In this document: positions 5,927-63,253 of the stretch, piece after piece
How the letters are laid out: every line of letters begins with the position of its first letter
Position numbering within the stretch: position 1 is the stretch's first letter
DNA from: Rhodoferax potami
GTDB taxonomy: Bacteria; Pseudomonadota; Gammaproteobacteria; Burkholderiales; Burkholderiaceae_C
Length of the DNA: 64,000 nucleotides
Direction: 5' to 3'
NCBI RefSeq assembly: GCF_032193765.1
Contig: NZ_JAVBIJ010000001.1
Location: 310,001-374,000, forward strand
Notes under the pieces: model-generated
What the model was told of the DNA's origin: nothing
The model's input: only the letters and a program-made list of their open reading frames with translations
The model's database searches: none
Program-made: the position numbers and the translations under genes

Positions 5927-5975
5927 AGGCTCTAGCGCAGGATTCATCTGCGCAGTCAGCTATATTTTTCATAGC
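5927..5975 (+). repeat. 49-bp dispersed repeat, intergenic copy
   Basis: This copy keeps the family landmarks: CTAGCGC at the left, CTGCGCA in the middle, and the terminal GCTAT(7)ATAGC hairpin at 5959-5975. It sits between the YceI terminator and the ABC ATPase gene. Other copies are at 10411, 27737, 41052, 43519, 60420 and 62672, plus a partial at 41109. Confidence 0.65.
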
Positions 5976-5999
5976 AACCAGTCATCCGCTTGTACCTCT

Positions 6000-6644
6000 A
6001 TGTCCGCTTCTGAATCGCCCGCCTCTTCTGCCGTGTTGATCGCCCGTGCCTTGCGCTGCAGCGCAGGCCCCCACCGTTTGTGGGGCCCGCTGGATGTGCA
6101 GCTGTCAGCCGGAGTGACCTGGGTGACCGGCGGGGAAGGGCGGGGCAAATCGAGTTTGCTGCGCATGCTGGCTGGCGACCTCGTGGTGCCGGGGAGCAAC
6201 CTGCAGCTGGCCGGCACCGGCCTGCAGACCGACCCTGCCCAGTACCGCAGAAAAGCCTTTTGGATGGACCCACGCACCAGTGCCTGGGACCAGTCTTCTC
6301 CCTTGCAGTTTTGGGAGCAAGGCAAGCGCCTCTGGCCCCTGTGGCGTGCGGAAATCTGCCGCGAGCTGGCGTCCGCCTTGGGGCTGGACGAGCACCTTGC
6401 GAAACCGATGTACATGCTGTCTACCGGCTCCAAGCGCAAGGTTTGGATTACGGCGGCCTGCGCCAGTGGTGCGGAGCTCACCTGCTTGGATGAGCCCTTC
6501 GCCGCCTTGGACCGTGCCTCCATACGCACCATCACCGAGCTGCTGCAGGATGCGGCGGCGCACAGTCCGCGCGCCTGGGTGTTGGCAGACTATGAAGCGC
6601 CTGCCGGGGTGCCACTCGCCGCCACCATCAATTTGGGCGCTTGA
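6000..6644 (+). CDS. Stand-alone ABC-type ATP-binding protein
   Basis: 214 residues, the size of a single nucleotide-binding domain. Walker A is GGEGRGKSS (residue ~44), the signature loop is LSTGSKRK (~140) and Walker B is LTCLDEPFAALD (~160). The switch-loop His expected about 30 residues after Walker B is not seen; the region reads AWVLADYEAP. No permease gene is adjacent, and the next gene downstream is a dioxygenase. The size and compactness recall CcmA-type exporters, but the substrate and the membrane partner are unknown. Confidence 0.75.
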   Translation: MSASESPASSAVLIARALRCSAGPHRLWGPLDVQLSAGVTWVTGGEGRGKSSLLRMLAGDLVVPGSNLQLAGTGLQTDPAQYRRKAFWMDPRTSAWDQSSPLQFWEQGKRLWPLWRAEICRELASALGLDEHLAKPMYMLSTGSKRKVWITAACASGAELTCLDEPFAALDRASIRTITELLQDAAAHSPRAWVLADYEAPAGVPLAATINLGA

Positions 6645-6681
6645 GCCCCGTGAATTTCGTCCTTTTGACCAGGAGAACCCT

Positions 6682-7488
6682 ATGACTTCCCGACTGCCCA
6701 CCTACTTTGTGTCCCACGGCGGTGGCCCTTGGCCTTGGATGGCGGATATGCGCGAGATGCTGGCCAGCTTGGACACGGCTCTGGCCGATATGCCGCGCCA
6801 GATCGGCCGCACGCCCAAGGCTGTTCTGATCATTACTGCGCACTGGGAAGAGCGTGCGTTTACCCTGGGCTCCAGTCCGGCGCCCGGCATGGTCTACGAC
6901 TACGGCGGTTTCCCGGCACACACCTACTCGGTGGTGTACCCCGCACCGGGTGCCCCTGAACTGGCCACGCGGGTACAGGGTCTGCTGCAAGAGGCGGGTC
7001 TGCCCGTGGCGCTGGACTCCGAGCGTGGCTACGACCACGGCACTTTTGTGCCCTTGGCCGTGATGTACCCGGATGCACAAGTGCCGGTGTTGCAAATGTC
7101 CCTGCGCGCGGGGCTGGACCCGGCTGAGCACATTGCGTTGGGTCGTGCGCTGGCGCCGTTGCGGGATGAAGATGTGTTGATCGTGGGCAGTGGCCTGAGC
7201 TATCACAACCTGCGCAATTTTGGTGCGGGCGGGCGGGCTCCGTCCAAGGCCTTTGACGTCTGGTTGCAAGACGTCATGGCCGCTACGCCTGCGGTGCGGG
7301 CAGAAGCGCTGGTGAACTGGGAGTCAGCGCCGGCCGCCCGCATCTGCCATCCGCGTGAAGAACATTTGTTGCCGCTGATGGTGGCCGTGGGCGCCGCCTA
7401 CGACGACGCTGCAGAGTGCGTGTACCACGACGAAGCGGTGTTTGGCGGCGTGACAGCGTCCAGCTTCCGCTTCGGCACAGCCAGCTAA
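6682..7488 (+). CDS. LigB/DODA-type extradiol dioxygenase family protein (YgiD-like)
   Basis: 268 residues from the ATG at 6682, which has AGGAG eight bases upstream; the frame is open much further upstream but that part overlaps the ABC gene. Motifs typical of the class III extradiol dioxygenase family are present: YFVSHGGGPWPW at the N-terminus, IITAHWEE, YDYGGFP, the active-site-like ERGYDHGTFVPL and the C-terminal HPREEHLLPLMVA. In bacteria these are usually annotated as 4,5-DOPA dioxygenase and use a mononuclear metal bound by His residues. The natural substrate here is not indicated by the neighbours. Confidence 0.88.
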   Translation: MTSRLPTYFVSHGGGPWPWMADMREMLASLDTALADMPRQIGRTPKAVLIITAHWEERAFTLGSSPAPGMVYDYGGFPAHTYSVVYPAPGAPELATRVQGLLQEAGLPVALDSERGYDHGTFVPLAVMYPDAQVPVLQMSLRAGLDPAEHIALGRALAPLRDEDVLIVGSGLSYHNLRNFGAGGRAPSKAFDVWLQDVMAATPAVRAEALVNWESAPAARICHPREEHLLPLMVAVGAAYDDAAECVYHDEAVFGGVTASSFRFGTAS

Positions 7489-7517
7489 ACGTAGGGGGCC
7501 AGAGGCCCGGGCGCGGT

Positions 7518-7925
7518 TCAGGGGCTTGCAGCCGTTTCTCGGAATGCAGGCTGCGCTGTGCGTGCGGGCAGCGCCCGGTGCTGCGGGGACACGGGTGCAG
7601 CCGGTGTCTGGGCTGAGACCATCTCGTCCAGAATATCGAGGGCATATTCGCAGACCAGAGCTGCGTGCTCCAGTTGGCGGTTTTTGTCTTCCAGTGCCGG
7701 AATCTCGTCGGTCCTTCCCAGTAGCATCAGGCCGATTTTTCGCTGGTTGTTAAACACCATGTGTTTGGCATCTGACATGCGGTCTTTGATGCGCTTGCGG
7801 CAAGCGCCCAGCCAGTCTTCTTCCTCGAGCACCCATTCAGCCAAAGTGGCTGCAATCAACGTTCTCGCGGCGCGGCGAAAAGTAAGCTGGTGGGGTGATG
7901 CGGCGGTTTTGAGTGGGGCTGACAT
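7518..7925 (-). CDS. Uncharacterised helical protein
   Basis: 135 residues from the ATG at 7925, preceded by GAGGG at a plausible distance; a longer frame starts at 7973. I do not recognise the family. The middle is rich in charged helix (AEWVLEEEDWLGACRKRIKDRMSDAKHMVF, then EIPALEDKNRQLEHAALVCEYALDILDEMV), suggesting a small soluble coiled or bundled protein, with a low-complexity Pro/Ala-rich tail after residue ~105. There is no signal peptide or membrane segment. It is convergent with the dioxygenase gene, so the two are not co-transcribed. Confidence 0.6.
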   Translation of the reverse strand: MSAPLKTAASPHQLTFRRAARTLIAATLAEWVLEEEDWLGACRKRIKDRMSDAKHMVFNNQRKIGLMLLGRTDEIPALEDKNRQLEHAALVCEYALDILDEMVSAQTPAAPVSPQHRALPARTAQPAFRETAASP

Positions 7926-8103
7926 GGTTTTGTGCCCTCTGGCGGGGCTCCCTGCTTTGGATTGAGCCAACAATAAGGTTTTTCCCGGTCGTCAGGGGCC
8001 GCCAATTGTTGTCCTCTGGACAATCTGACGCAAAAAACCGCCGATATGTGAACTTTTACGGGCATTTGCCGCCAGTCCGAGGCGGCCTGCGGCGACGCGC
8101 CAA

Positions 8104-8760
8104 TCAGTAGCTGCTGGGTTCCTGGGCCGGCTTTTGCACGAACGGGGGCTGCCGGCCTACGGTTTCTTCCAGTAAGACCAACTCCGAGTCACGGTGATTG
8201 ATAACGGGTGCTGGCCGCAACACCGGTTGGCTGCTGTCGTAACTGATGTACATCGGCATGTCGTGGTAGGTCGTGGTCAAGCTCCGCGCGAGGCCGGGGT
8301 TTGCGAGCGGCTTGATATCTGCAGTCCCGTAGCACAGGCAGAAATAGAGTTGAGTCTCCTGCGCTTCCATGTAGCAGGCGGTACCCCGGATACCGACGGT
8401 TGCGGCCCGAGTCTCGATGCGTTTCGGACTGGGGCCAAACACCGCAAGTGCTTTGCCGCTGATCAGCCGCAGCACACTCACCACCTCGTCCTGGGCGAAT
8501 TGCAGGCTGCTCTTTTCACGGAGCAGGTAAGCGTTGTCGCCCATCACAAACACCGTTTCGCTCAGGGCACCGGTGCTGATGGTGTCCCCGGGCAAGATCG
8601 CTTGTTCGATACGGGCCACGCCTCCGTTGAGAAACACCTCGCCCTTGATGCGGCGTATGCCGCTTTGCAAGGGGCGTTGGCCCATGGCCAGCGCATCCAC
8701 CAAGCCGCCCAAGCTACTGATCGCCACACTGTTTGCGATGAATTGACGCCGATTGCTCAT
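8104..8760 (-). CDS. FecR-domain protein with twin-arginine-like signal
   Basis: 218 residues from the ATG at 8760. The start MSNRRQFIANSVAISSLGG looks like a twin-arginine export signal. A FecR-type domain follows (VFLNGGVARIEQAILPGDTISTGALSETVFVMGDNAYLLREKSSLQF, then VLRLISGKALAVFG). The later TRAATVGIRGTACYMEAQ segment is typical of FecR-domain proteins that are not sigma regulators. No fecI-type sigma gene or TonB receptor is nearby, so iron signalling is unlikely. It diverges from urtA across a 259-bp gap; a link with urea uptake is only positional. Confidence 0.7.
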   Translation of the reverse strand: MSNRRQFIANSVAISSLGGLVDALAMGQRPLQSGIRRIKGEVFLNGGVARIEQAILPGDTISTGALSETVFVMGDNAYLLREKSSLQFAQDEVVSVLRLISGKALAVFGPSPKRIETRAATVGIRGTACYMEAQETQLYFCLCYGTADIKPLANPGLARSLTTTYHDMPMYISYDSSQPVLRPAPVINHRDSELVLLEETVGRQPPFVQKPAQEPSSY

Positions 8761-9019
8761 AAGCTGAATGTTGAAAAGTGGAAGAAGAGCGCCCCGTGGA
8801 TATCCGGTTGATGGCCCAGGGACGACAAAAGATAGCGCCATTCGGCAGGGGCGTCTAGTGCCCTCTCGGGCTGACTGCAGTGCGCGGGCTGTACGCCACT
8901 AGGCGTATTTCCGGTTCGGACGGGCAAACCTACAGTCACTCCATCGCATCACACAACCTCTTCTGAGTTTGTTCCGCGAGAAGTGAGATGGATTTGTTTA
9001 ACCCCCCGGAGAAGCCCAC

Positions 9020-10282
9020 ATGCAACGTCGTTTTACTTTGAAGGCACTCACCGCTGCCGTCGCCCTTACCACCTTGTCGGCAGTGCCCGCCATGGCTGCA
9101 GACACGATAAAGGTCGGTATCCTGCACAGCCTGTCCGGCACCATGGCCATCTCGGAAACCGTGTTGAAAGACACCGTGCTGATGGCGATTGACGAGATCA
9201 ACGCCAAGGGCGGCGTGCTCGGAAAAAAGCTGGAGCCTGTCATCGTCGACCCCGCGTCCAACTGGCCCCTGTTTGCTGAAAAGACCAAGCAGCTGCTTAC
9301 CCAAGACAAAGTCTCGGTCATCTTTGGTTGCTGGACTTCCGTGTCACGCAAGTCGGTGCTGCCTGTGGTGGAAGAGTTGAACGGCCTGTTGTTCTACCCT
9401 GTTCAATACGAAGGTGAAGAGCTGTCCAAAAACGTGTTCTACACCGGTGCTGCGCCTAACCAGCAAGCCATTCCCGCAGTCGACTACCTGATGAGCAAAG
9501 AAGGTGGCGGCGCCAAGCGCTGGGTGCTGTTGGGTACCGACTATGTGTACCCCCGCACGACCAACAAGATCCTGCGCGCCTACCTGAAGTCCAAGGGCGT
9601 GAAAGAGTCTGACATCGACGAAAAATACACCCCGTTTGGCCACAGCGATTACCAGACCATCGTGGCTGACATTAAGAAATTCAGCGCTGGTGGCAAGACC
9701 GCGGTGGTGTCCACCATCAACGGCGACTCCAACGTGCCTTTCTACAAAGAACTGGGCAACGCCGGCCTGAAAGCCAAAGACGTGCCCGTGGTGGCCTTCT
9801 CGGTGGGCGAAGAAGAGTTGCGCGGTGTAGACACCAAGCCTTTGGTCGGTCACTTGGCGGCATGGAATTACTTCCAATCCATCAAGAACCCTGCCAACAC
9901 CGAGTTCATCAAAAAGTGGTCTGACTACGCCAAGGCCAAGGGTATTGCCGGTCACAAGGACAAGCCTTTGACCAACGACCCGATGGAAGCCACTTACATC
10001 GGTATCAACATGTGGAAACAAGCCGTCGAGAAGGCCAAGTCCACCGACACCGACAAAGTGATCGCCGCCATGGCCGGCCAGACCTTCAAGGCACCCAGCG
10101 GCATCGTGTCCAAGATGGATGAGAAAAACCACCACTTGCACAAGAGCGTGTTCATCGGCGAGATCAAGGCCGACGGCCAGTTCAACGTGGTCTGGAAAAC
10201 TCCGGGCCCTGTGAAAGCCAAGCCATGGTCTCCGTACATCGAAGGCAACGACAAGAAGCCTGATGAGCCCGCAAAGAAATAA
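9020..10282 (+). CDS. urtA: Urea ABC transporter, substrate-binding protein UrtA
   Basis: 420 residues with a signal peptide ending near AMAADTIK. The body matches the UrtA/FmdD branch of periplasmic leucine-type binding proteins: VGILHSLSGTMAISE, NAKGGVLGKKLEPVIVDPASNWP, VIFGCWTSVSRKSVLPVVEE, LLFYPVQYEGEE and LLGTDYVYPRTTN. It captures urea (or short amides in relatives) and hands it to UrtBC. GGAG lies about eight bases before the ATG. A hairpin with a T-rich tail separates it from urtB, which would favour excess binding protein. It is the first gene of urtABCDE. Confidence 0.95.
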   Translation: MQRRFTLKALTAAVALTTLSAVPAMAADTIKVGILHSLSGTMAISETVLKDTVLMAIDEINAKGGVLGKKLEPVIVDPASNWPLFAEKTKQLLTQDKVSVIFGCWTSVSRKSVLPVVEELNGLLFYPVQYEGEELSKNVFYTGAAPNQQAIPAVDYLMSKEGGGAKRWVLLGTDYVYPRTTNKILRAYLKSKGVKESDIDEKYTPFGHSDYQTIVADIKKFSAGGKTAVVSTINGDSNVPFYKELGNAGLKAKDVPVVAFSVGEEELRGVDTKPLVGHLAAWNYFQSIKNPANTEFIKKWSDYAKAKGIAGHKDKPLTNDPMEATYIGINMWKQAVEKAKSTDTDKVIAAMAGQTFKAPSGIVSKMDEKNHHLHKSVFIGEIKADGQFNVVWKTPGPVKAKPWSPYIEGNDKKPDEPAKK

Positions 10283-10315
10283 GGCGTCGGCAGGGAGAGG
10301 CTAGCGTTTAGCCAG

Positions 10316-10357
10316 AGCCGCCACAGCCTTGAAAAGGGCGTGGCGGCTTGTTGTTTT
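10316..10357 (+). terminator. Intercistronic hairpin with T-rich tail between urtA and urtB
   Basis: AGCCGCCAC (10316-10324) and GTGGCGGCT (10340-10348) form a perfect nine-base stem followed by TGTTGTTTTT. It looks like a partial terminator that lets urtA be made in excess over urtBCDE while still allowing read-through. Confidence 0.65.
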
Positions 10358-10377
10358 TACCCCGGAGAGATTGGCGT

Positions 10378-11958
10378 ATGCCAAAAAAATTACTTCAGTT
10401 GCTCACAATTGCTATGCTTTTGATAGCTACTCGCGCAAGCGCTCTGAGCGCTGACGAGGCAAAAGCTATTGCAATTGGTGAGAGCGATGCGCGTGTGGCG
10501 GCATTGCAGAAGGCGGTGGAGAGCGCTGATGCGCGCACCGTGCGCTTTATCCAGGCGCTGTCCGATGATGCCGTCAAGCTCGTGGGCGAGGTTCCGGTGA
10601 TGGTGATCGATGGCAAAGGCCTCGACCCGGTCACGCTGGCCGAGGTCACCGTGCCGGACACGGCGGAAGACGTGATGAACAACAACCGCATGCGCGGCGA
10701 GCTCGACACCGCGCTGGCCGCGGTCAAGCTCTTGTCGCCAGAGGTGGCGATACGTCGTGCCGCCATTCAAACACTGGGTGGCCAGGTCGATACCGGCAAG
10801 CTGCCTTTGCTGGAGAAGGCGCTCGCCACCGAGACAGAACCCGCTTTGAAAGAGGCCCTGCAGCAACTGCGCGCTGCCGCGCTGCTGGGCAGTGACAACC
10901 CTACCGAGCGTTTGGCCGCTGCCACTGAACTCGGCACCAGCGCCCAAGCCGCTACCAAAACACTGCTCGTAGAGCGCCTGCAGGCGGAGACAGATGGTGC
11001 CGTCAAAGCCGCACTGCAAAAAGGCTTGGGTGCCGTGGAGGCGCGTCTGGCTTGGGGCGACCGCCTGGGCGCCATTTTTAGCGGCGTGAGCTTGGGCTCC
11101 ATCTTGCTGCTGGTGGCTCTGGGGCTGGCGATTACCTACGGCTTGATGGGCGTGATCAACATGGCCCACGGCGAGCTGATGATGATTGGCGCCTACGCCA
11201 CTTATGTGGTGCAGGTGCTGTTCCAAAAATACCTGCCCGGCGCATTCGACTGGTACTTGCTGGCGGCGGTACCGGTGGCGTTCATGGCATCGGCGCTGGT
11301 GGGCGCGGCCCTGGAGCGCAGCGTGATCCGTTTTCTCTATGGCCGCCCGCTCGAAACCTTGCTCGCTACCTGGGGTATCAGCCTGATGCTGATGCAGCTG
11401 GTGCGCACCCTCTTTGGTGCGCAAAACGTGGGTGTGGAAAACCCGAGCTGGATGAGCGGCGGTGTGCAACTGCTGGGCAACCTCTCGCTGCCCTACAACC
11501 GCTTGGTGATTGTGGGCTTCGCAGTGGCTGTACTGGCTGGCGTGTGGTTTTTGATTGAAAAAACACGACTCGGCCTGTTTGTCCGCGGTGTGACTCAGAA
11601 CCGCCCGATTGCCAGTTGCATGGGCGTGAACACGGCCCGCATTGACACCTATGCCTTTGCACTGGGCTCCGGTATTGCCGGGCTGGCAGGCTGCGCGCTC
11701 AGCCAGGTGGGCAACGTCGGGCCGGACTTGGGCCAAGGCTACATCGTGGACTCGTTCATGGTGGTGGTGCTCGGTGGCGTGGGCCAACTGGCGGGCACGG
11801 TTTACGCCGCCATGGGCCTGGGTGTTTTGAACAAATTCCTGGAAGGCTGGACGGGCGCCGTGCTGGCCAAGATTGCGGTACTGGTCTTCATCATCATCTT
11901 TATCCAGAAGCGTCCGCAAGGCATTTTTGCCATGAAGGGCCGGAGCGCAGAAGCATGA
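10378..11958 (+). CDS. urtB: Urea ABC transporter permease UrtB
   Basis: 526 residues from the ATG at 10378, preceded by GGAGAG. The N-terminal ~220 residues form a secreted helical extension behind a signal peptide (LLTIAMLLIATRASALS), a feature common to proteobacterial UrtB, followed by a LivH-type permease of about eight helices (SLGSILLLVALGLAITYGLMGVINMAHGELMM; VVLGGVGQLAGTVYAAMGLG). It forms the membrane channel with UrtC. The signal peptide region is encoded by a copy of the dispersed 49-bp repeat (10411-10460). Confidence 0.95.
   Translation: MPKKLLQLLTIAMLLIATRASALSADEAKAIAIGESDARVAALQKAVESADARTVRFIQALSDDAVKLVGEVPVMVIDGKGLDPVTLAEVTVPDTAEDVMNNNRMRGELDTALAAVKLLSPEVAIRRAAIQTLGGQVDTGKLPLLEKALATETEPALKEALQQLRAAALLGSDNPTERLAAATELGTSAQAATKTLLVERLQAETDGAVKAALQKGLGAVEARLAWGDRLGAIFSGVSLGSILLLVALGLAITYGLMGVINMAHGELMMIGAYATYVVQVLFQKYLPGAFDWYLLAAVPVAFMASALVGAALERSVIRFLYGRPLETLLATWGISLMLMQLVRTLFGAQNVGVENPSWMSGGVQLLGNLSLPYNRLVIVGFAVAVLAGVWFLIEKTRLGLFVRGVTQNRPIASCMGVNTARIDTYAFALGSGIAGLAGCALSQVGNVGPDLGQGYIVDSFMVVVLGGVGQLAGTVYAAMGLGVLNKFLEGWTGAVLAKIAVLVFIIIFIQKRPQGIFAMKGRSAEA
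10411..10460 (-). repeat. Dispersed repeat copy inside urtB signal peptide region
   Basis: A 50-base variant of the family, read in the urtB direction as GCTAT..TTTTGATAGCT, CTCGCGCA, GCGCT and terminal GAGGC. Relative to the + strand it is inverted compared with the copies at 5927, 41052, 60420 and 62672. It encodes about residues 12-27 of UrtB, including the signal-peptide hydrophobic core. This copy is more diverged than most and contains a one-base length difference. Confidence 0.5.
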
Positions 11959-13936: not shown

Positions 13937-14060
13937 AAGCCCCCACGCTCCACCGTTGCACGGGTCGCTGCCCCCCAAGGGGGCTAATTTTTCCCTTCGG
14001 GGCTGACCGCCAAGCGGCTCAGAGCATTGGGGCGGCCCTGCGAAAAATTGCACAGGTAAG
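13937..14060. repeat. Hairpin-rich spacer between urtD and urtE, candidate dispersed intergenic element
   Basis: The spacer contains GCCCCC/GGGGGC (13970-13984) with a three-base loop followed by TAATTTTT, then CCC-TTCG-GGG. A spacer this long is unusual inside an otherwise overlapping operon. I recall GC-rich elements of this look between genes in Comamonadaceae, but there is no second copy in this window to prove it is a repeat. In effect it could act as an intercistronic attenuator. Confidence 0.4.
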
Positions 14061-14068
14061 AGAACACT

Positions 14069-21440: not shown

Positions 21441-23255
21441 GGGTGTGTATGTTCTTGGGCCAGTTGATGCAGCAGGTGGCTGAGCGCATCTACTGCGAGT
21501 TGCATGTCGTCGCTGGTGGTCGATTCCAGCGGGTTGTGGCTGATGCCGGAATTCTGGCCGCGTACAAACAGCATGGCCTGCGGCAGGATGGTGTGCAGCT
21601 TCATGGCATCGTGGCCGGCGCCGCTGGGCATGCGGTGCAGGGGTACACCCAGTGCGGTTACTGCGGCTTCCCAGCGCTGCTGCCATTCGGGCGCGCTGGG
21701 CGCGGCGCTGGCTTGCATGGTGCGGGTGAGGCTGTGGTGCAGGCCGCGGCGCTCGCAAATCAGGCGCAGGCCGGTGAGCACTTTGGCCTCCAGTGCATCG
21801 CGCTGCACATCGGATGGTGCGCGCAAATCCAGGGAAAAGGTGCAGCGCCCGGGCACCACATTGATGGAGCCATTGGGCACTTGCAGCTGCCCCACGGTGC
21901 CTACCGAGTCACCATCTTGGGTGGCGCAGTGTTCGACCAGCAAAATCAGCTCGGCCACCGCAGCGGCGGCGTCACGGCGCTGGCCCATGGGCGTCGTGCC
22001 TGCGTGGCTGGCCATGCCGGTGATCTCGCCCACATAACGCACGCTGGCGTTGATGGAGGTGACCACGCCCAACGGAATGTCCAGCGCGTTGAGCACCGGG
22101 CCTTGTTCGATATGGACCTCCACAAAGCCTTGGTAGTCGGCAGGGTTGCGGCGGATGGCGCCAATAGCGTTCACATCCAACCCCGCTTTCGCCATGGCGT
22201 CGCGCATGGCAATGCCGTCTGCGTCCGTTTGGTCCAGCCAGGCGGGGTCAAAGTCGCCGGTGAGTGCGCCAGAGCCCAGAAAGGTGGCTTTGTAGCGCTG
22301 GCCTTCTTCTTCGGCAAAGGCCACTACTTCCAGCGCATAGGGCAGGCGCTGGCCCCGGGCCTTGAGCGCTTGCACACAGGCGAGTGGCACGTAAATTCCC
22401 AAGCGACCGTCGTACTTGCCACCGTTGCGCACGGTGTCATAGTGGCTGCCGGTCAGCAGGGTTTTGGATGAAATAGGGCCTTGGCGCTCGTCGGATGTGC
22501 GCGGGTAGCTATCACTTTCATAGCGCCCCACCACATTACCCACCGCATCGATGGTGGCGCTGTCGCAGCCAGCAGCCAGCATATCTGCTTGGATCTGGCG
22601 GGCGCAGGCTAGGTGCGCATCGGTCAGGTAGGTCACGGTGAGTTGGCCGGTCCCCACATAGGCTGCGTCAGTGTGTTGGGCCAGCGCCTCCTGCCAGTCC
22701 CACACCTGCTGGCCTTGGGTGGGTGTGTAGCCAAACTTGTCGTTGAGACGGATTTCGGCAATGCGGTGCACATTGCGCAGGCATTCGGCTAACTCAAAGT
22801 CCGGGTGACCTTGCACGCGGCGCTCCAGCGTGGCGATGATCTCCGCTTTGGAGAGGCCTGTACCGCGCGGGCCGCGTACTGCAAGGATGAAGGGGAAACC
22901 GAAACGCGCGTTGTACTCTGCATTCAGGCGCTGAATTTTGTCGAACTCGGCGGGCGTGCAATGCGTGAGGCCGGCCTTGCTTTGCTCATTGGTGCTCTCG
23001 GCAGTGAGGCTTTGGTCCACCATCGCCTTGCCGGCCAATTCGGGGTGGGCCCGCAAGAGGGCGAGCTGGGGTTCGCGCCCTGCCGCGGCCACCACTTGCA
23101 CCATGCCATGTTTGAAGGCCGCGAGTGACACAAAGGGCCGTTGTTGCAAGGCCGTTTCCACAATCCACGGAGAGTGCTCGTACAAGCCGTTCGAGGCGTT
23201 GTGCAGCTTCGGCCAATGGCAGGGTGTTGAGTTGTTCCAGTGTCAGTGTGTTCAT
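21437..23255 (-). CDS. UraD (OHCU decarboxylase)-allantoate amidohydrolase fusion, frameshifted near the N-terminus
   Basis: The ATG at 23255, five bases past the puuE stop, begins a UraD-like N-terminus (MNTLTLEQLNTLPLAEAAQ, RLERL). The next UraD motif, YEHSPWIVE, is read in a different frame that opens from a TTG at 23185 and runs to 21437. Removing one base near 23183-23186 would join them as RLERL-YEHSPW. The downstream frame carries the rest of UraD (catalytic-type His in AHPELAG, LTAESTNEQSKAGL, FGFPFILAVRG), then an M20 allantoate amidohydrolase (TGSHYDTVRNGGKYDG, AEEEGQRY, HIEQGPVL, SGAGHDAM). If TTG is used, about 24 N-terminal residues are lost. Together the domains decarboxylate OHCU to allantoin and hydrolyse allantoate. 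Confidence 0.8.
22508..22524. repeat. Possible degenerate fragment of the dispersed repeat hairpin
   Basis: GCTAT-CACTTTC-ATAGC has the same GCTAT(7)ATAGC form as the hairpin end of the 49-bp repeat at 5927-5975. It lies inside the UraD-allantoate amidohydrolase gene at its domain junction. The remaining landmarks (GCGCA, GCGCT) are missing, so it may be chance. Confidence 0.25.
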
Positions 23256-26788: not shown

Positions 26789-28027
26789 ATGGAAAGCTAT
26801 TTACTCGATTGGGCCAACTTGCTGTTGCGCTGGGTGCACGTCATTACCGCGATTGCGTGGATCGGCTCCTCCTTTTATTTTGTGTTTCTCGACAGCAGCC
26901 TGACGCCGCCGGAAGACGACGACCTCAAGAAACAAGGGGTGAGCGGCGAGCTATGGGCGGTGCACGGTGGCGGTTTTTATCACCCGGTCAAATTCGCCGG
27001 GGCGCCACCCAAGTTGCCGGGCAACTTGCATTGGTTTTATTGGGAGAGCTATAGCACTTGGCTCACGGGCTTTGCATTGTTCACGGTGTCCTACCTGTGG
27101 AGTGCGGGCACTTATTTGATCGACAAATCAGTCATGGCCTGGCACCCGCATGCTGCGATTGCAGTGGCACTGTCATTTCTGGTGGTGTTCTGGTTGGCCT
27201 ATGACGGAATTTGCCGGGTTTTCGGCAAGCGCAAACATGGCGATGCCATCGTGGGTGCGCTGGTCGCGGTGCTGGTGTGTGTGGCCTCGTACTTGGCCTG
27301 CCACTGGTTTGCCGGGCGCGCTGCCTTTTTGCTGGTGGGCGCCATGATGGCCACGGCCATGAGTGCCAACGTGTTCTTCTGGATCATTCCCGGCCAGCGC
27401 ACCATGGTGAAAGACATGGCTGCCGGTCGTGCGGTAGACCCGATCCACGGCAAGCGCGGCAAGCAGCGCAGCGTGCACAACACCTATTTCACCTTGCCGG
27501 TGTTGTTCGCCATGCTGAGCAACCACTACAGCTTTACCTACAGCCATCCGCAAAACTGGCTGGTGCTGATTGTGATGATGGGGGCCGGTGCCGCTATCCG
27601 CCAGTTTTTTGTGCTGCGCCATGGGTACAAGTTGGCCCGTAATCCGCACCCCTGGCCCTATGCGGCAGCCGGTGTAGTGGCGATTTTGGGTTTGCTGGTG
27701 TGGCTCAAGCCAACGCCACCCGCTAGCGCCCCTGTTGCTACGAATTCTGTAGCGACTGGCGCAGTTGCTGCGGGCGCTAGCGGCACTATTGGCTATCAAG
27801 ATATCCAGCCTGTGTTGGAGCAGCGTTGCTACATGTGTCACGGGGCAGCGGTGCAAATGAAAAACGTGCGCGTCGATAGCCCTCAAGCCCTGAGCAGCCA
27901 TGCCCAGGCGGTGTACCAGCAGGTGGTGGTAAGCAAAATCATGCCGATGAACAACTCCACCAACATCACCGATGCCGAGCGCGACATCGTGAAGCGCTGG
28001 TTCGAGGGCGGGGCGAAGACGGAGTAG
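26789..28027 (+). CDS. puuD: Membrane urate hydroxylase PuuD with C-terminal cytochrome c domain
   Basis: 412 residues. About eight membrane helices with several conserved His residues (LRWVHVITAIAWIGSSFYFVFLD; GELWAVHGGGFY; ANVFFWIIPGQRTMV; TYFTLPVLFAMLSNHY) match the DUF989 urate hydroxylase family. A Pro/Ala linker (~308-333) leads to a cytochrome c domain with CYMCH at 347-351 and a Met ligand candidate in KIMPMNN. It oxidises urate to 5-hydroxyisourate using the respiratory chain instead of making hydrogen peroxide. AGGAG precedes the ATG. Part of the linker is encoded by a dispersed repeat copy. Confidence 0.95.
   Translation: MESYLLDWANLLLRWVHVITAIAWIGSSFYFVFLDSSLTPPEDDDLKKQGVSGELWAVHGGGFYHPVKFAGAPPKLPGNLHWFYWESYSTWLTGFALFTVSYLWSAGTYLIDKSVMAWHPHAAIAVALSFLVVFWLAYDGICRVFGKRKHGDAIVGALVAVLVCVASYLACHWFAGRAAFLLVGAMMATAMSANVFFWIIPGQRTMVKDMAAGRAVDPIHGKRGKQRSVHNTYFTLPVLFAMLSNHYSFTYSHPQNWLVLIVMMGAGAAIRQFFVLRHGYKLARNPHPWPYAAAGVVAILGLLVWLKPTPPASAPVATNSVATGAVAAGASGTIGYQDIQPVLEQRCYMCHGAAVQMKNVRVDSPQALSSHAQAVYQQVVVSKIMPMNNSTNITDAERDIVKRWFEGGAKTE
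27737..27785 (-). repeat. 49-bp dispersed repeat copy inside puuD linker
   Basis: Read in the puuD direction: GCTA at the left, GTAGCGACT, GGCGCAG and GGGCGCTAGCGGC at the right, aligned over 49 bases with the copies in xdhA and ttuD. It encodes roughly residues 317-333 of PuuD, in the linker between the membrane and cytochrome c parts, and keeps the frame open. Confidence 0.55.
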
Positions 28028-39688: not shown

Positions 39689-41041
39689 ATGACCCCGTCT
39701 GAAAAACCCTCTGTGCGCGGCACCCCTGTGGTGACTGCGCTGCGCGTCATCCCGGTTGCCGGCCATGACGGAATGTTGATGAACCTGAGTGGTGCCCACG
39801 CGCCTTTCTTTACCCGCAACATCGTCATCCTGACCGACAGCAGCGGTAACACCGGTGTGGGCGAAGTGCCCGGCGGCGAGAAGATCCGCCAGACCCTCGA
39901 AGACGCTGCCTCTTTGGTAGTAGGCCAATCCATTGGCAACTACAACGCCATCCTGAACCGCATGCGCGAAGCCTTTGCCGCCCGCGACAGCGAGGGCCGT
40001 GGCCTGCAGACCTTTGACCTCCGCGTGGCGATTCACGCAGTCACCGCCGTGGAAAGTGCCTTGCTCGATTTGCTGGGCAAATTCTTGGGTGTGCCGGTGG
40101 CGGCCTTGCTGGGCGATGGCCAACAACGCAGCAGCGTCGCGGTGCTGGGCTACCTGTTCTATGTGGGCGACCGCCAGAAGACTGACTTGCCCTACATCAG
40201 CGAGCCGGATCAGGCAGATGACTGGAAGCGCCTGCGCCACGAGAAAGCCATGGACGCGGACGGCGTAGTGCGCTTGGCAGAAGCCGCCTATGCGCGCTAT
40301 GGCTTTCTGGATTTCAAGCTCAAGGGCGGTGTGCTGCGCGGCGAGGAAGAAGTGGAGGCCATACGCGCCCTGCATGCCCGCTTCCCGCAAGCCCGCATCA
40401 CCTTGGACCCGAACGGTGGATGGCTGTTGAATGACGCGGTGCGCCTGTGCCGCGACTTGCATGGCGTGATGGCCTACGCCGAAGACCCCTGCGGTGCAGA
40501 AGGCGTGTTCTCCGGTCGCGAAGTCGTGGCCGAGTTCCGCCGCGCCACCGGCCTGCCCACTGCCACCAACATGATTGCCACCGACTGGCGCGAGCTGGCG
40601 CATTCGCTGGCCTTGCAGTCGGTGGACATTCCCTTGGCCGACCCGCATTTCTGGACCATGCAAGGTTCGGTGCGGGTGGCGCAGGTCTGCCAAACCTGGG
40701 GTCTGACCTGGGGTTCGCATTCCAACAACCACTTTGACGTGTCGCTGGCCATGTTCACCCATGTGGCGGCCGCTGCACCGGGCAAGGTGACGGCCATTGA
40801 TACGCACTGGATCTGGCAGGACGGCCAGCGCCTGACCCAAGACCCGCTGCAGATTGTGGGCGGACAGATTGCGGTGCCCACCACGCCTGGTTTGGGTGTG
40901 GAGCTGGACATGGTCGAAGTGGAAAAAGCCCATCAGCTCTACTTGCAGCACGGCTTGGGCGCACGTAATGATGCGATGGCCATGCAGTACCTGATCCCCG
41001 GCTGGAAGTTCGACCCCAAGCGTCCCTGCCTCGTACGTTGA
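39689..41041 (+). CDS. gudD: Glucarate dehydratase
   Basis: 450 residues from the ATG at 39689, with AAGGAG seven bases upstream. Enolase-superfamily GudD motifs: [56 protein letters not shown], base Lys pair in [13 protein letters not shown], metal ligands in [11 protein letters not shown] and [20 protein letters not shown] and general-base His in [15 protein letters not shown]. It dehydrates D-glucarate to 5-dehydro-4-deoxy-D-glucarate, feeding GarL. With garD it lets the cell use both glucuronate- and galacturonate-derived aldarates. Confidence 0.95.
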
Positions 41042-41051
41042 GGCTTGAATT

Positions 41052-41100
41052 GGCCTCTAGCGCCCGTCGATATTGCGCGAGCAGCTCCTATTTCAGGAGC
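41052..41100 (+). repeat. 49-bp dispersed repeat, intergenic copy after gudD
   Basis: Starts GGCCTCTAGCGCCCGTC and ends with the hairpin GCTCCT-ATTTC-AGGAGC (41084-41100). It is close in sequence to the xdhA copy at 62672 in its left 40 bases. It occupies most of the 98-bp gap between the gudD stop and the amidohydrolase stop. Confidence 0.7.
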
Positions 41101-41108: not shown

Positions 41109-41135
41109 GCTAATGCCTTTAGCTACTGCGCAGGT
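41109..41135 (-). repeat. Partial dispersed repeat copy in inverted orientation
   Basis: GCTAATGCCTTTAGCT then ACTGCGCAG matches the GCTAT...AGCTGCTTGCGCAG half of the family read in the opposite sense to the copy at 41052. It ends at the 3' end of the amidohydrolase gene, so the convergent gene ends here are joined by a head-to-head repeat pair. Confidence 0.4.
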
Positions 41136-41139: not shown

Positions 41140-42618
41140 TCAGTGGACTGCAGCCGCAGCCAGCTGCAGCGCCAGCCGGTTGTGGCGCTCCATCAGCGGG
41201 CCGAGATCTACCGTATCCAAGTGGCCCTCGCGCACCACCACTTTGCCGTTGACGACCGTGTAGTCCGCCTGCGGACTGGCACACAGCAGCAGGCTGCCGA
41301 CCGGGTCATGAACTGCGCCACCGGCAAAGCCCAGCGTGTCCAGGTCAAACAGCACCAGGTCCGCACACATGCCCACTGCAAGGTGGCCGATGTCTTTGCG
41401 GCCCAGTACTTGCGCGCCGCCCCGGGTGGCTACGCTCAGGGCATCCCGCGCGGTCATCTCGGCCGGGCCCAGATCGCAACCGAAGAAGGTGCGGCGTTCG
41501 CCAGTGGGCAGCACACGCTCCTCGGGTGGCTGCATGGCGCGGCCTACGCGGGCCAGCAGCAGGGCCTGGCGGGCCTCGTTCACCATGTGGGCAGCGTCAT
41601 TGCTGGCACTGCCGTCCACACCCAGGCCTACCGGCACGCCGGCGTTCAGCATTTTGCGGATGGGGGCGATGCCGCTGGCCAGGCGCATATTGCTGCACGG
41701 GCAGTGGGCCACGCCGGTGCGGCTGGCGGCAAACAGGCTGATGCCCTCGTCATCCAGCTTCACGCAGTGGGCGTGCCACACGTCCTCACCCAGCCAGCCC
41801 AGGTCTTGGGCATATTGGGTGGGGGTGCAGCCGAACTTTTCGCGGCTGTAGGCGAGGTCGTGGTCGTTCTCCGCCAGGTGGGTGTGCAGGCGTACGCCCT
41901 GACCCTTGAAGCTGCGGGCCAGCAGGGCGGCTTCGCGCATCAGGTCGCGGCTCACGCTGAACGGGGAGCAGGGCGCCAGTGCCACATTCAGCATGGAGCC
42001 CCAGCTCGCATCGTGGTGCTGCTCGATCAGCCGTTGGCTCTCTTTGAGAATGAAGTCTTCTTGTTCTACCACCCGGTCCGGAGGCAGGCCGCCTTGGCTC
42101 TGGCCTACGCTCATGCTGCCCCGCGTGGCCACAAAGCGCATGCCGATTTCGGCAGCCGCGCTAATGCTGTCGTCCAGCCGCACACCGTTGGGGTAGATGT
42201 AGAGGTGGTCGCTGCTGGTGGTGCAGCCGCTCATCAGCAGTTCCGCCATGGCGATCTGGGTGCTCACCTGCACCATCTCGGGGGTCAGGCCGGCCCAGAT
42301 GGGGTACAGCCCGCGCAGCCAGCCGAACAGCTCTGCGTTTTGCACACCGGGTATGGCCCGCGTGAGGCTCTGGTACATGTGGTGGTGGGTGTTCACCAGA
42401 CCGGGGGTGACCAGATGGCGCTGCGCGTGGATCACCTCGTCAGCTTCCAGCGCGTGTGGCGGCAGGTCGGCCGTGGCGCCCATAAAAGCGATACGGTTAC
42501 CCTCGATATAAATCGAAGCGTTGCGCAGCTCGGTGGATTGCGCCGGGTCAGCGTGGTCGAAAGTGGCCGAATCGAATGTGGCGATGGCGCGCGCGTTGTG
42601 GATCAGCAAAGTGCCCAT
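41140..42618 (-). CDS. 8-oxoguanine deaminase-type amidohydrolase (AtzB-like)
   Basis: 492 residues of the metal-dependent amidohydrolase superfamily: metal-binding HxH in TPGLVNTHHHMYQSLTRA, GCTTSSDHLYIYPNG, His in VRLHTHLAENDHDLAYS, VWHAHCVKLDDEG and Asp in GLGVDGSASNDAAHMVNEAR. The subgroup covers 8-oxoguanine deaminase and hydroxydechloroatrazine ethylaminohydrolase; the YIYPNG(V) and GRAM(Q) stretches and the purine genes elsewhere in the window favour 8-oxoguanine deaminase, which makes urate. It sits within the aldarate block, so this is not certain. Confidence 0.8.
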   Translation of the reverse strand: MGTLLIHNARAIATFDSATFDHADPAQSTELRNASIYIEGNRIAFMGATADLPPHALEADEVIHAQRHLVTPGLVNTHHHMYQSLTRAIPGVQNAELFGWLRGLYPIWAGLTPEMVQVSTQIAMAELLMSGCTTSSDHLYIYPNGVRLDDSISAAAEIGMRFVATRGSMSVGQSQGGLPPDRVVEQEDFILKESQRLIEQHHDASWGSMLNVALAPCSPFSVSRDLMREAALLARSFKGQGVRLHTHLAENDHDLAYSREKFGCTPTQYAQDLGWLGEDVWHAHCVKLDDEGISLFAASRTGVAHCPCSNMRLASGIAPIRKMLNAGVPVGLGVDGSASNDAAHMVNEARQALLLARVGRAMQPPEERVLPTGERRTFFGCDLGPAEMTARDALSVATRGGAQVLGRKDIGHLAVGMCADLVLFDLDTLGFAGGAVHDPVGSLLLCASPQADYTVVNGKVVVREGHLDTVDLGPLMERHNRLALQLAAAAVH

Positions 42619-59022: not shown

Positions 59023-59108
59023 TCGCCACTTACATTTCGCAGCCTTTGCTCGCAGGCGCGACTGCGAATAGTTGCTACATTGCAGCGGTCTTTTCTACCG
59101 ATGCACTT

Positions 59109-59369: not shown

Positions 59370-59393
59370 GGGGCAGGCCCCAAACCTTCGTGC

Positions 59394-61766
59394 TCAGTCC
59401 TTGAGCGCTTTCAACACATTCTCAGCCGTGGCCGGCGCCGTGAGTTGCACGGTGGCACCCGGGCCTTTGGCTTGGGCTACCGCATCGCGCAAGGCTTCAA
59501 ACACGCTGATGCCCAGCATGAAAGGTGGCTCGCCCACGGCTTTGCTGCCGAACACGTTGTCTTCCCGGTTGGGTTCGTGCCAAAGGTCCACCTTGAAGTG
59601 CTCGGGCACATCCGCCGCGGTGGGAATTTTGTAGGTGCTGGGCGCGTGGGTGCTGAGGTAACCCTTGTCGTTCCAGACCAGTTGCTCCGTGGTGAGCCAG
59701 CCCATGCCTTGCACAAAGGCGCCTTCAATTTGCCCCACGTCGATGGCGGGGTTGATGCTGCGGCCCACGTCGTGGAGGATGTCCACTTTGAGCACCTTGC
59801 TTTCGCCGGTGAGGGTGTCGATCACCACTTCGGTGCACGCTGCACCATAAGCGAAATAGTAAAAGGGCCGGCCGGTCAGCGTCGTCTTGTCGTAGTGGAT
59901 TTTGGGGGTGCGGTAAAAGCCGTCGCTCCAGAGTTGGATGCGGTTGGCATAAGCCATTTTCACCACGTCGTCGAAGCTGCGGGTGGTGGTGGGCGAGAAC
60001 ACTTCGCCATGCTTGAAGCGCACGGCCCCTGCACCGCAGCCATCGAGCCCGGCCACAAAGGCGGCCAGGTTGTCGCGCACATTGCGGGCGGCAAACTGGG
60101 CCGCGCGGCCGTTGAGGTCGGTACCCGCACTGGCTGCAGTGGCCGAAGCATTAGGCACTTTGCTGGTGTCGCTGGCGGTGCTGAGCACCCGGGTGAAGGG
60201 AATGCCCAATTCGTCCGCCACGATCTGGGCGACCTTGGTATTCAGGCCCTGACCCATCTCGGCGCCGCCATGGTTCACCTGCACGCTTCCGTCGGTGTAC
60301 ACATGCACCAGCGCGCCAGCTTGGTTAAACAGCGTCGCCGTAAAGCTGATGCCGAACTTGACCGGCGTAATGGCGATGCCGCGCTTGAGCACCGGGCTGG
60401 TCTGGTTCCATGCCGAAATAGCCTCTACCCGCCGTCGATACTGCGCAGATAGCTCCAATTTTGATAGCAAGGGATGGAGGATGTTGTCCTCCACTTTCAT
60501 CTGGTAGTGGGTGGTGTCGCGCCTCTGGTCGGTGCCTGCAATGGCCTCATCGCTGTAGAGGTTGCGCATGCGCACATCCAGCGGGTCGAGGTTGAGCGCA
60601 CGTGCGATGTCGCCCATCACCGCCTCAATCAGCACCACGCCCTGCGGGCCGCCGAAGCCGCGGAAGGCGGTGTGGCTCTGGGTGTTGGTTTTGCAGCGGT
60701 AGGAGGTGATGTCCACATCCTGCAGGTAGTAGGCGTTGTCGGTGTGGAAGATGGCGCGGTCCGCCACCGGGCCGGACAGGTCTGCGCTGAAGCCGCAGTT
60801 AACAGCCATTTGCAGTTTGAGGGCGGTCAGGCGGCCGGTATCGTCAAAGCCCACGCTGTATTCATACGCAAAGGGGTGACGTTTGCCGGTGACCATGAAG
60901 TCGTCGTCCCGGTCCAGCCGCAGCTTCACGGCGCAGCGGTTTTTGGCCGCCGCAATGGCAGCCCACACGGCCAGATGGCCGGCCTGCGTTTCCTTGCCGC
61001 CGAAGCCGCCGCCCATGCGCCTGCATTCCACCTTGACGGCGTGGTTGTCGATGCCCAATGCGTGGCTCACCCAGTGCTGCACTTCACCGGGGTGCTGGGT
61101 GCTGCTGTAGACCACCCACTGGTTCTGCTCCTGCGGCAGCATATAGGCAATCTGGCCCTCCAGGTAAAAGTGTTCCTGCCCACCAACTTCCAGCGTGCCG
61201 TGCAAGGTGTGGGGCGCGCTTTTCAGGGCCGCATCCGCATCACCGCGCCGCACGTTGACCGGCGGCAGCACAAAGCTTTGGGCGCGGATGGATTCCTGCA
61301 CCGACAGGATGGCCGGCAAGGGCTCGATCTTGAGTTGCACTTTCCGGGCGGCATGGCGGGCCTGCATCACCGTTTTGGCAAGCACCACGCCCACCACTTG
61401 GCCGACGAACTGCACGGTGTCCAAGGCAAACACCGGCTCGTCGCCGGCAAAGGCGGCCAGCATGGGGTCGCCGGGAATGTCCTCCGCCAGCACCACGTCC
61501 ACCACGCCGGGCATGGCGCGCGCTGCCGTGCTGTCCACGCCCAGCAGCTTGCCGTGCGCGTGGGTGGAAAGGATGGGCGCGGCATACAAGGTGCCGCGTA
61601 CCTCGGGCAGGTCGTCGATGTAATGCACCGCACCGGCCACCTGGGCCACGGCGCTTTCATGGAACTGGTTGACGCCGGCGGCCGGGCCGCGGGGGGCGGG
61701 CACGGCGGCGGCGACCTCGGGCGAGAGCGTAGGCATGAGCGTTGAAATCATAGGGGGGGCAGTCAT
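59394..61766 (-). CDS. xdhB: Xanthine dehydrogenase molybdopterin-binding subunit XdhB
   Basis: 790 residues. Aldehyde oxidase/xanthine dehydrogenase motifs: AVHYIDDLPEVRGTLYAAPILSTHAHGKL, EGQIAYMLPQ, substrate/cofactor loop CRRMGGGFGGKETQAG (~248-262), TAFRGFGGPQGV, HGGAEMGQGLNTKVAQI and the catalytic Glu in SKAVGEPPFMLG near the C-terminus. It forms the active site that hydroxylates hypoxanthine and xanthine to urate. It overlaps xdhA by four bases (ATGA). Residues ~435-449 are encoded by a dispersed repeat copy in a region between conserved blocks. Confidence 0.95.
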   Translation of the reverse strand: MTAPPMISTLMPTLSPEVAAAVPAPRGPAAGVNQFHESAVAQVAGAVHYIDDLPEVRGTLYAAPILSTHAHGKLLGVDSTAARAMPGVVDVVLAEDIPGDPMLAAFAGDEPVFALDTVQFVGQVVGVVLAKTVMQARHAARKVQLKIEPLPAILSVQESIRAQSFVLPPVNVRRGDADAALKSAPHTLHGTLEVGGQEHFYLEGQIAYMLPQEQNQWVVYSSTQHPGEVQHWVSHALGIDNHAVKVECRRMGGGFGGKETQAGHLAVWAAIAAAKNRCAVKLRLDRDDDFMVTGKRHPFAYEYSVGFDDTGRLTALKLQMAVNCGFSADLSGPVADRAIFHTDNAYYLQDVDITSYRCKTNTQSHTAFRGFGGPQGVVLIEAVMGDIARALNLDPLDVRMRNLYSDEAIAGTDQRRDTTHYQMKVEDNILHPLLSKLELSAQYRRRVEAISAWNQTSPVLKRGIAITPVKFGISFTATLFNQAGALVHVYTDGSVQVNHGGAEMGQGLNTKVAQIVADELGIPFTRVLSTASDTSKVPNASATAASAGTDLNGRAAQFAARNVRDNLAAFVAGLDGCGAGAVRFKHGEVFSPTTTRSFDDVVKMAYANRIQLWSDGFYRTPKIHYDKTTLTGRPFYYFAYGAACTEVVIDTLTGESKVLKVDILHDVGRSINPAIDVGQIEGAFVQGMGWLTTEQLVWNDKGYLSTHAPSTYKIPTAADVPEHFKVDLWHEPNREDNVFGSKAVGEPPFMLGISVFEALRDAVAQAKGPGATVQLTAPATAENVLKALKD
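60420..60468 (+). repeat. 49-bp dispersed repeat copy inside xdhB
   Basis: 38 of 49 positions match the xdhA copy at 62672, including 17 consecutive identical bases at the right end (AGCTCCAATTTTGATAGC region). On the coding strand it encodes LSKLELSAQYRRRVEA in the same frame as the xdhA copy. Confidence 0.75.
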
Positions 61767-63253
61767 GCGGCTTCTCCTGTCAGCACGTAGCTATCTAGAT
61801 TGATGGCCGTGAGGCCCTGGCTTTCCAGCCAGTAGCGCTGTAGCAGGTTGCCCAGCACCTCCACCCGGTAGGCGCTGCTGGCGCGCATGTCGGAAATCGG
61901 GCTGAACTCGGACCGCAGGGTGGCCTGGGCGGCTTTCACCGTGGCGGGGTTCCAGGGTTTGCCCAGCAAGGCAGCTTGTGTCTTGAGCGCACGCACTGGC
62001 GTGGCCGCCACACCACCGACCCCGATGCTGGCGTGGGTGACAATGTCGCCTTCGATATGCAGGTTCAGCGCGAGGCAGACGGCAGAAATATCGTCTTCAA
62101 AGCGTTTGGAAATCTTGTAAACGCGTGACCGCTCGTGGGGCACGGCCTTTGGCACTTTGATCCAGGCCAGCACTTCGTCCGGCGCCATGACGTTCTGGCG
62201 GTAGCCGGTGTAGAGGTCTTCCAGGCGCAGTTCGCGGTGCACCGCTTTGGCCTTGTTGCCTTTGCCGCGCCAAGCCATCAGCACCACGCTGGCGCCCAAG
62301 GCAATTAGCAGCGGCATGGAGTCCCCGATGGGCGAGCCATTGGCCACATTGCCGCCTAGCGTACCTGCATTGCGCACCGGAAGGCCGGCAAAGCGGCTGG
62401 CAAAAGTGGCCAGCTGCGGCCGGTCAGCCACCAGGGCGGCAAACGCATCCGTCAGGGTGACGGCGGCGCCTATGGCGATGTGGTGCGGATACTGCTCCAC
62501 GCGTCGCAGTTCAGCCACTTGGGTCACATCCAACACGCGCGGAAAGTCCTTGTGCATTTTGGTGACCCACAGGCCTACATCGGTGCAGCCAGCGACTATT
62601 TGCGCTTGCGGATACTGGGCCCGCGCCGCCAGCAAGGCGGGCAGGGTGGTGGGGGATATATAAGAAGAATCGACCTTTAGCGCCCGTCCATCCTGCGCAA
62701 GCAGCTCCAATTTTGATAGCGTTTCGGCTTCGCGCAGGTCTACGGCGGGTTGGCCCAGCATGGTCTGGGCAGCATCCAGGATAGGGCGGTAGCCGGTGCA
62801 GCGGCACAAATTCCCGCTCAGTGCGTGCAGCGCGTCGTCCCGGGTGATGGGGGCGCCGGCATGGGCATGGTGGCGGTACAGGTCAAACAGGCTCATCACA
62901 AAGCCGGGGGTGCAAAAGCCGCATTGCGAGCCGTGGCATTGCACCATGGCTTCTTGCGCAGGGTGCAAGCGGCCGTCGTCGGCGGCAATGTCTTCCACCG
63001 TCCACAGTGCCTTGCCGTTCAGGCTGTGGGCCATCTTGATGCAACTGTTTACTGCCTTGGTCTGCAGTTCGCCGTTGACCGATTCGCCCACGACGACGGT
63101 GCAGGCACCACAGTCCCCTTCGTTACAGCCCTCTTTGGTGCCCGTGCAGTGCAGGTCTTCGCGCAGCACCTCGAGCAGGGTGCGGGTGGGGGGAACGCCA
63201 TGCAGCGTGACGATTTCGCCGCGGCGTACAAACTTCAATGGGGTGGTGGTCAT
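61763..63253 (-). CDS. xdhA: Xanthine dehydrogenase small subunit XdhA ([2Fe-2S] and FAD)
   Basis: 496 residues. The N-terminal part binds two [2Fe-2S] clusters: Cys43, Cys48, Cys51 and Cys71 in TGTKEGCNEGDCGACTVV...NSCIK, and Cys111, Cys114, Cys150 and Cys152 in CGFCTPGFVM...GNLCRCTGYRPI. The FAD domain begins near 200 (AQIVAGCTDVGLWVTK; LPVRNAGTLGGNVANGSPIGDSMPLLIALGASVVL). It passes electrons from XdhB to NAD. The linker at residues ~179-193 is encoded by a copy of the dispersed repeat. First gene of xdhAB, divergent from a LysR gene. Confidence 0.95.
   Translation of the reverse strand: MTTTPLKFVRRGEIVTLHGVPPTRTLLEVLREDLHCTGTKEGCNEGDCGACTVVVGESVNGELQTKAVNSCIKMAHSLNGKALWTVEDIAADDGRLHPAQEAMVQCHGSQCGFCTPGFVMSLFDLYRHHAHAGAPITRDDALHALSGNLCRCTGYRPILDAAQTMLGQPAVDLREAETLSKLELLAQDGRALKVDSSYISPTTLPALLAARAQYPQAQIVAGCTDVGLWVTKMHKDFPRVLDVTQVAELRRVEQYPHHIAIGAAVTLTDAFAALVADRPQLATFASRFAGLPVRNAGTLGGNVANGSPIGDSMPLLIALGASVVLMAWRGKGNKAKAVHRELRLEDLYTGYRQNVMAPDEVLAWIKVPKAVPHERSRVYKISKRFEDDISAVCLALNLHIEGDIVTHASIGVGGVAATPVRALKTQAALLGKPWNPATVKAAQATLRSEFSPISDMRASSAYRVEVLGNLLQRYWLESQGLTAINLDSYVLTGEAA
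62672..62720 (+). repeat. 49-bp dispersed repeat copy inside xdhA linker
   Basis: It has CTTTAGCGCCCGTCC at the left, CTGCGCAAGCAGCTCC in the middle and AATTTTGATAGC at the right. On the coding strand it encodes LSKLELLAQDGRALKV. Strongest matches are the xdhB copy (60420) and the intergenic copy at 41052. Confidence 0.75.

Follow-up and report, generated by a model that had tools for sequence, protein, structure and literature searches.

The neisserial DUS and the Pasteurellaceae USS, as characterised in PMC2397512, PMC2346458, and PMC3630211, are uptake sequences that occur in hundreds of copies or more, combine a tight core with permissive surroundings, are bound to the core genome, use preferred frames in genic copies, and form dialect-like variants between genera. 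The motif described here, which occurs in a window of 64,000 nucleotides of Rhodoferax potami and in other Comamonadaceae, resembles DUS and USS in all of these respects, and similar behaviour is reported for those of Neisseria (PMC2397512). It differs from both in length (55-66 bp in three blocks compared to 9-12 bp), in its lower number of copies, and in that competence genes do not separate genomes with the motif (carriers) from those without (non-carriers).

Rickettsia palindromic elements are inserts that lengthen their host protein. Like the motif, they are dispersed and occur in frame inside genes, a likeness noted by the original prediction, which had been made from the letters of the window. 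The likeness fails in two respects: several genic copies of the motif are length-neutral, with lengthening of the protein at some loops only, and the palindrome is not kept, a conserved hairpin being absent. REP/REPIN sequences with their RAYT transposase are similar to the motif in size and biased to gene ends, and a RAYT-like gene is present in most genomes of our survey. Unlike REP/REPIN, the motif is common inside genes, RAYT does not track it, and one RAYT gene is flanked by a different repeat.

For dispersed repeats of Comamonadaceae, only BRE and the sequence pairs of PMC5217627 were relevant among the matches listed in a literature search that lay mostly in papers outside subscription; within the same scope, no paper on uptake sequences in Comamonadaceae or Burkholderiales was retrieved. 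BRE are dispersed in Comamonadaceae and Bordetella, mostly intergenic with few genic copies, 75-91 bp long with 69% G+C in Bordetella, often in tandem, and present in at most 29 copies, according to the description in PMC3110155. On this description, the motif (55-66 bp, single copies) is set apart from BRE by size and make-up. Table 7 of PMC5217627 (2017) gives the pairs GCTTAT(N)5AAGCG of Acidovorax ebreus TPSY (114 copies) and ATAGCT(N)22CAAAAG of Polaromonas naphthalenivorans CJ2 (125 copies), both left unexplained there. By eye, their letters and spacing fit columns 29-44 (Acidovorax form) and 17-50 of the motif, respectively, and the gene context of GCTTAT(N)5AAGCG (44 convergent, 4 divergent, and 59 co-oriented) resembles that of the motif. 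The section with Table 7 treats the pairs separately, one for each species, and describes neither the motif as a whole nor its spread through the family nor its maintenance.

The reading to which we tentatively lean, short of calling it probable, is a maintained recognition motif of Comamonadaceae chromosomes with a few hundred copies, for which an uptake-sequence-like role is the best fit. Maintenance is the well supported part of this reading; the uptake part is drawn by analogy and faces real counter-evidence. An uptake or self-recognition role ranks as likeliest, a role in chromosome structure second, and a mobile element third. It is doubtful that the motif is a new self-recognition sequence of the uptake type, with an unusual length and dialects by genus; such a sequence would rewrite codons of housekeeping proteins in place, and the Comamonadaceae would become the third bacterial family in which a system of this kind exists. 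Should a protein read the motif, the chromosomes and some proteins of a large bacterial family would be shaped by one unrecognised DNA-handling system. One genus contains carrier and non-carrier species that are close relatives, which makes the function of the motif directly testable.

Definition and Abundance of the Motif

The motif is a dispersed DNA sequence of ~60 letters (about 55-66 bp) with three conserved blocks, GCTAT..ATAGCT, CT.GCGCA, and GCGCTAGAGGCC plus ATTT. The blocks span about 50 columns, and a contiguous core of 9-12 bp of the DUS/USS type is not present. A gap-free alignment of 51 copies over 70 columns gives the consensus nnTTGCTATnAATTTnATAGCTGCTnGCGCAnATTCnACGnGCGCTAGAGGCCnATTTnnnnnnnAA. 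The profile was iterated on the window (C1:310001-374000) together with 20 stretches of 20 kb, taken at even intervals from the source genome G000 (4.0 Mb, two contigs), 464 kb in total. Genes were called with a custom hexamer caller and no standard program.

These 464 kb contain 59 matches at E<0.01, which correspond to 57 separate places, and 63 matches at E<0.5. One dinucleotide shuffle, searched in four rounds of the profile, gave 1, 0, 0, and 0 matches at E<=0.5. A simple pattern matched 217 times in the source genome and its reversed form 0 times. The shuffle and reversed-pattern controls rule out chance or base composition as origin of the repeat, and the dispersed family postulated in the original prediction is real. 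In 724 kb of source DNA, 88 copies were found at E<1e-3, from which roughly 470 copies per chromosome are extrapolated.

Copies in the Window

All seven places named in the original prediction contain the motif (nhmmer E 4.1e-11 to 2.8e-8, Table 1); an eighth copy, located in the uraD-allC fusion gene, had been missed. The assignment of five copies to urtB, puuD, ttuD, xdhB, and xdhA was correct, with the number of genic copies rising to six, and two copies are intergenic as proposed. An inverted partial copy at 41109 is absent among the profile matches at E<0.5. The copies of ttuD, xdhB, and xdhA share a common codon phase, and the frames used are free of stops and lie at soft places, both in line with the earlier description.

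Table 1. Copies of the motif in the 64,000-nucleotide window
Location of the copy	Position	Strand	nhmmer E
Intergenic, tandem genes	5922..5976	-	1.7e-10
Over urtB signal peptide	10410..10453	+	2.8e-8
uraD-allC fusion gene	22471..22524	-	3.5e-10
puuD (urate oxidase), between urate oxidase domain and CYMCH sequence	27736..27787	+	8e-11
Gap between two convergent genes	41048..41095	-	4.7e-11
ttuD/glycerate kinase, over ancestral DALSILKR codons	43519..43572	+	5.1e-11
xdhB, length-neutral	60416..60469	-	1.1e-8
Fe-S/FAD linker of xdhA	62668..62720	-	4.1e-11

The intergenic copy between tandem genes has orthologously placed counterparts in G007 and G034, and the genes around the other intergenic copy are located at 39689-41041 (+) and 41140-42618 (-). 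In case of urtB, the start is situated inside the motif by the hexamer gene call and upstream of it by the ORF list. Urate_ox_N covers residues 3-305 of PuuD.

A second dispersed, G+C-rich repeat, CCCCCACGCTCCGCCGC..GCGGGTCGCTGCCCCCC, is present at 13938-14009 of the window. It has 8 copies in stretches of the source genome, G001, G007, and G034, and short matches to it are numerous in congeners, among them genomes without the motif. This repeat is perhaps BRE, whose description it likely fits better than the motif does.

Codon Rewriting and Added DNA at Individual Sites

The original prediction had regarded the copies as small mobile inserts tolerated in proteins. A small mobile element resembling MITEs, REPINs, or the Rickettsia palindromes would insert in gaps and genes, most copies being old and degraded and some of them tolerated in proteins. 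This reading was examined by comparison with orthologues.

At the XdhB site, scores were obtained for 71 of 80 named loci, and the alignments shown are gap-free; the orthologue scores form a graded series from 37 to -116 (source copy 41), and the Y and following R residues are retained in most orthologues. UrtB equals four non-carriers in length at the motif; one of them, G004, has a gap of 2 residues immediately ahead of it. Similarly, the RlmI-like gene (L015:12598-13779) equals three non-carriers in length and has the motif at the same place in the carriers G026 and G015. Of six genic copies tested, five are likewise present at their place in these two carriers. For TtuD, 55 of 120 rows (the window protein included) are gapless, 60 are four residues shorter, and 5 have small gaps, while the residues under the first block read DALSILKR, DALAILKR, or similar in most rows shown. 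DapF (L015:15742-16611) exceeds its counterparts in six non-carriers by 2-3 residues. From these alignments, we conclude that the motif grew over existing codons in XdhB, UrtB, the RlmI-like protein, DapF, and TtuD. The motif-free orthologues of XdhB, UrtB, and the RlmI-like protein have homologous residues at the site and are of equal length, an outcome that the original prediction itself had named as its refutation; it contradicts an insertion at these sites and argues against a mobile element as their source.

Other copies differ in length from their orthologues. The uraD-allC loop has 11 residues more than in three non-carriers, and PuuD at the motif is one residue shorter in the non-carrier G018 and 12 shorter in G035. 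A gene of L008 with a copy exceeds two of four non-carriers by 18 residues and the other two by 13, a second site of L008 is longer by 8-19 residues, and for the gene at L015:16649 the difference ranges from 8 residues more to 2 fewer. A copy restricted to G034, in a galactarate dehydratase gene, adds exactly 54 nt (97 compared to 43 between shared ends). Gaps that contain a copy exceed those without one by roughly a motif length, with medians of 89 (19 gaps) compared to 23 without a copy (77) for convergent genes and 122 (30) compared to 38.5 (414) for tandem genes, a comparison biased by the fact that short gaps cannot accommodate a copy. A tandem gap of L020 measures 142 bp in the source, 144 in the carrier G026, 36 in the carrier G015, which has no copy there, and 14-32 in five non-carriers; it also contains a different repeat.

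That different repeat (L020:12633-12704) follows straight after the motif copy, has long inverted arms, and is matched widely in carriers and non-carriers.

Judged by these alignments, both routes appear to be realised, i.e., length-neutral rewriting of codons as well as the addition of DNA in gaps and loops. The original prediction is supported in that copies such as those of G034, L008, and the gaps add DNA, and its mobile-insert reading fails for XdhB, UrtB, and the RlmI-like gene. Insertion would also account for the lengths of the gaps and for the +54 nt copy, and the xdhB copy exceeds the profile cut-off in only 5 of 74 loci, both of which count against the recognition motif that we favour. 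The xdhA copy exceeds it in 20 of 80 named loci, which include Rhodoferax, Polaromonas, and Acidovorax, with genus variants.

For 46 source copies in 344 kb, the close relative G001 (about 94% identical) offered no clean empty site, which counts against a mobile element: 36 copies are shared, 2 are source-only and differ by one or two letters, and 1 lacks a homologue. From the opposite side, 36 of 55 G001 copies are shared, 9 are broken, and 10 have no homologue in the source stretch.

In case of the remaining 7 of the 46 source copies, the homology to G001 stops at or near the motif, as if recombination junctions were situated there (L101-L114 and window compared to L115-L133).

Maintenance of the Core Letters

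Between the genomes of six pairs, changes in 17 core columns are 4-12 times rarer than in the spacer columns of the same copies, and the core is also less diverged than the flanks in all six. Between source and G001, 18/578 core, 46/340 spacer, and 733/13257 flank positions differ; between source and G034, these values are 4/176, 28/105, and 479/4271. The profile was built from source-genome copies, a bias that is answered in part by comparing other genomes with each other. For this test, copies were picked in the source and a 19-column core was defined from other copies. The differences in core, spacer, and flank amount to 8/190, 23/100, and 428/3878 for G007-G034, 10/209, 26/110, and 548/4277 for G001-G007, and 5/209, 31/110, and 557/4275 for G001-G034. 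In case of G015-G026, the core (16/104) is clearly distinct from the spacer (24/52), whereas the difference to the flank (461/2203) is not significant (p 0.1). At four-fold degenerate sites of genic copies, 19/158 core, 27/72 spacer, and 664/2505 flank positions differ, where the core value may be lowered, at most by roughly half, because the copies were selected in the source genome.

Continuing constraint of the core letters at the DNA level, also inside genes, is therefore well supported. It argues against a decaying insert, which would not show a constrained core between free spacers.

Distribution among Genomes and Replicons

Among 36 congeners, at least 82 matches were obtained in 16, 22 in G023, 1-4 in five, and none in 14. 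Matches at E<=1e-5 occur in 106 of 299 genomes of the family, which represent 59 of 141 genera. In a set of 24 genomes from other families, a lone weak match turned up in one. The congener and family surveys used stricter filters, and their match counts per genome are to be read as at least 82 and at least 16, respectively. The second contig (C2) of the source has 0 copies in 135,133 bases and that of G001 2 copies in 140,000 bases. A blastn search with one consensus, which detects close copies only, matched none of the 50,697 phage records and four of the 72,556 plasmid records. The motif is chromosome-bound and patchily distributed; scarce as it is on plasmids, phages, and second contigs, the 10 G001 copies mentioned above yet occur in DNA without source homologue.

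Candidate Trans-Acting Factors

RAYT-type Y1_Tnp genes occur in 35 of 37 genomes, carriers as well as non-carriers, and are absent from the carrier G031. Motif copies adjoin Y1_Tnp genes in G034, G015, and G023, and weak ones do so in G000 and G007, as a mobile element would predict; no copy is situated beside a Y1_Tnp gene in the carrier G026. The RAYT gene of the non-carrier L157 is flanked by a different inverted repeat, ATTGGGGTCAGATTCCAATT. Since its presence does not track the motif, RAYT was rejected as the mover, and no other tested gene tracks the motif, so that the helper or transposase gene considered in the original prediction was not found among them. Taking these observations together with the length comparisons and the constrained core, we consider a small mobile element unlikely.

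The source genome encodes ComEC and a pilin of the ComP_DUS family. ComEC (PF03772) is present in 32 of 37 genomes, and four of the five genomes without it are carriers (G012, G020, G026, and G030); G026, which is 99% complete, also lacks TIGR00361, and G020 has a partial match. The ComP_DUS family pilin is found in 30 of 37 genomes; the remaining seven comprise five carriers, and several of them are incomplete. Non-carriers possess both ComEC and the ComP_DUS family. Competence genes were consequently rejected as the switch that turns the motif on or off, and their absence mostly from carriers counts against an uptake role, as do a length far beyond that of uptake sequences, a density of about one copy per 8 kb, and uneven spacing.

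In the reading we favour, the recognition motif arises in two ways, by length-neutral rewriting of codons in conserved parts of proteins and by the gain of DNA in gaps and loops. Selection or molecular drive then holds the core letters in place, and the spacer letters are free to vary. A sequence-specific protein would have to read the motif; by analogy with uptake sequences, self-DNA may be recognised during transformation, and copies may spread by recombination, confined to the old chromosome.

Placement and Orientation on the Chromosome

The 88 source copies are located in genes (34), between genes (42), and over gene ends (12). The common orientation claimed for genic copies applies to all six in the window; as 19 of the 34 genic copies in 724 kb are in the same sense as the gene and 15 are antisense, it is local and does not hold in general. 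The phase that puts a TAG of the consensus in frame is avoided by same-sense genic copies (1 of 19). For 52 placeable copies out of 54 non-genic ones, 19 convergent, 31 tandem, and 2 divergent gaps were counted, compared to 29, 177, and 84 among all gaps >70 bp, a set to which some copy-bearing gaps <70 bp do not belong. The motif avoids promoters.

REP/BIME sites bind gyrase or nucleoid proteins. In the same manner, the motif could be a site of chromosome structure or supercoiling, bound by a host protein at gene ends and permissive coding places and kept by selection. The gap counts, the core held at DNA level, the chromosome-bound and patchy occurrence, and the missing link to competence genes agree with such a site. 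On the other hand, any promoter-avoiding motif would show an equal bias to gene ends, and presence and absence within one genus would be odd for a basic function. Leading-strand bias was also not observed, 80 of the best 150 copies lying on the leading strand with the origin guessed from sampled GC skew. In sum, a role in chromosome structure appears somewhat unlikely, and the uptake-like recognition motif is retained as the better fit.

The spacing of copies is no more even than random (CV 0.94 in the source and 0.82 in G001, compared to 0.97). The strands of the best 150 C1 copies cluster (58 runs compared to 76 expected, P 0.0025), and the guessed replication direction is not followed. A strand bias suggested among the first pattern matches listed is not supported by the later profile and gene-context counts.

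RNA and Terminator Properties

The original prediction had called the element palindromic. Palindromes are present without compensatory change: the two obvious helices have 84.5% paired cells compared to 84.6% in shuffles, and double changes are not in excess. RNAalifold on the motif copies yielded two pairs and no covariation, and Rfam gave no match at the copies. An RNA element or conserved hairpin was rejected on these grounds.

A transcription terminator or 3'-end RNA element would explain the bias to gene ends, and extended palindromes occur in 4 of 54 non-genic copies compared to 0 of 34 genic ones. It is nevertheless highly improbable, given the 34 of 88 copies inside genes on both strands, the missing covariation and Rfam match, and the equal occurrence of TTTT after the motif in non-genic (14 of 54) and genic copies (9 of 34).

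The intergenic copies with extended palindromes are L017:9417, L018:13199, L018:6096, and L009:9126, of which the first three run into TTTTT and are terminator-like.
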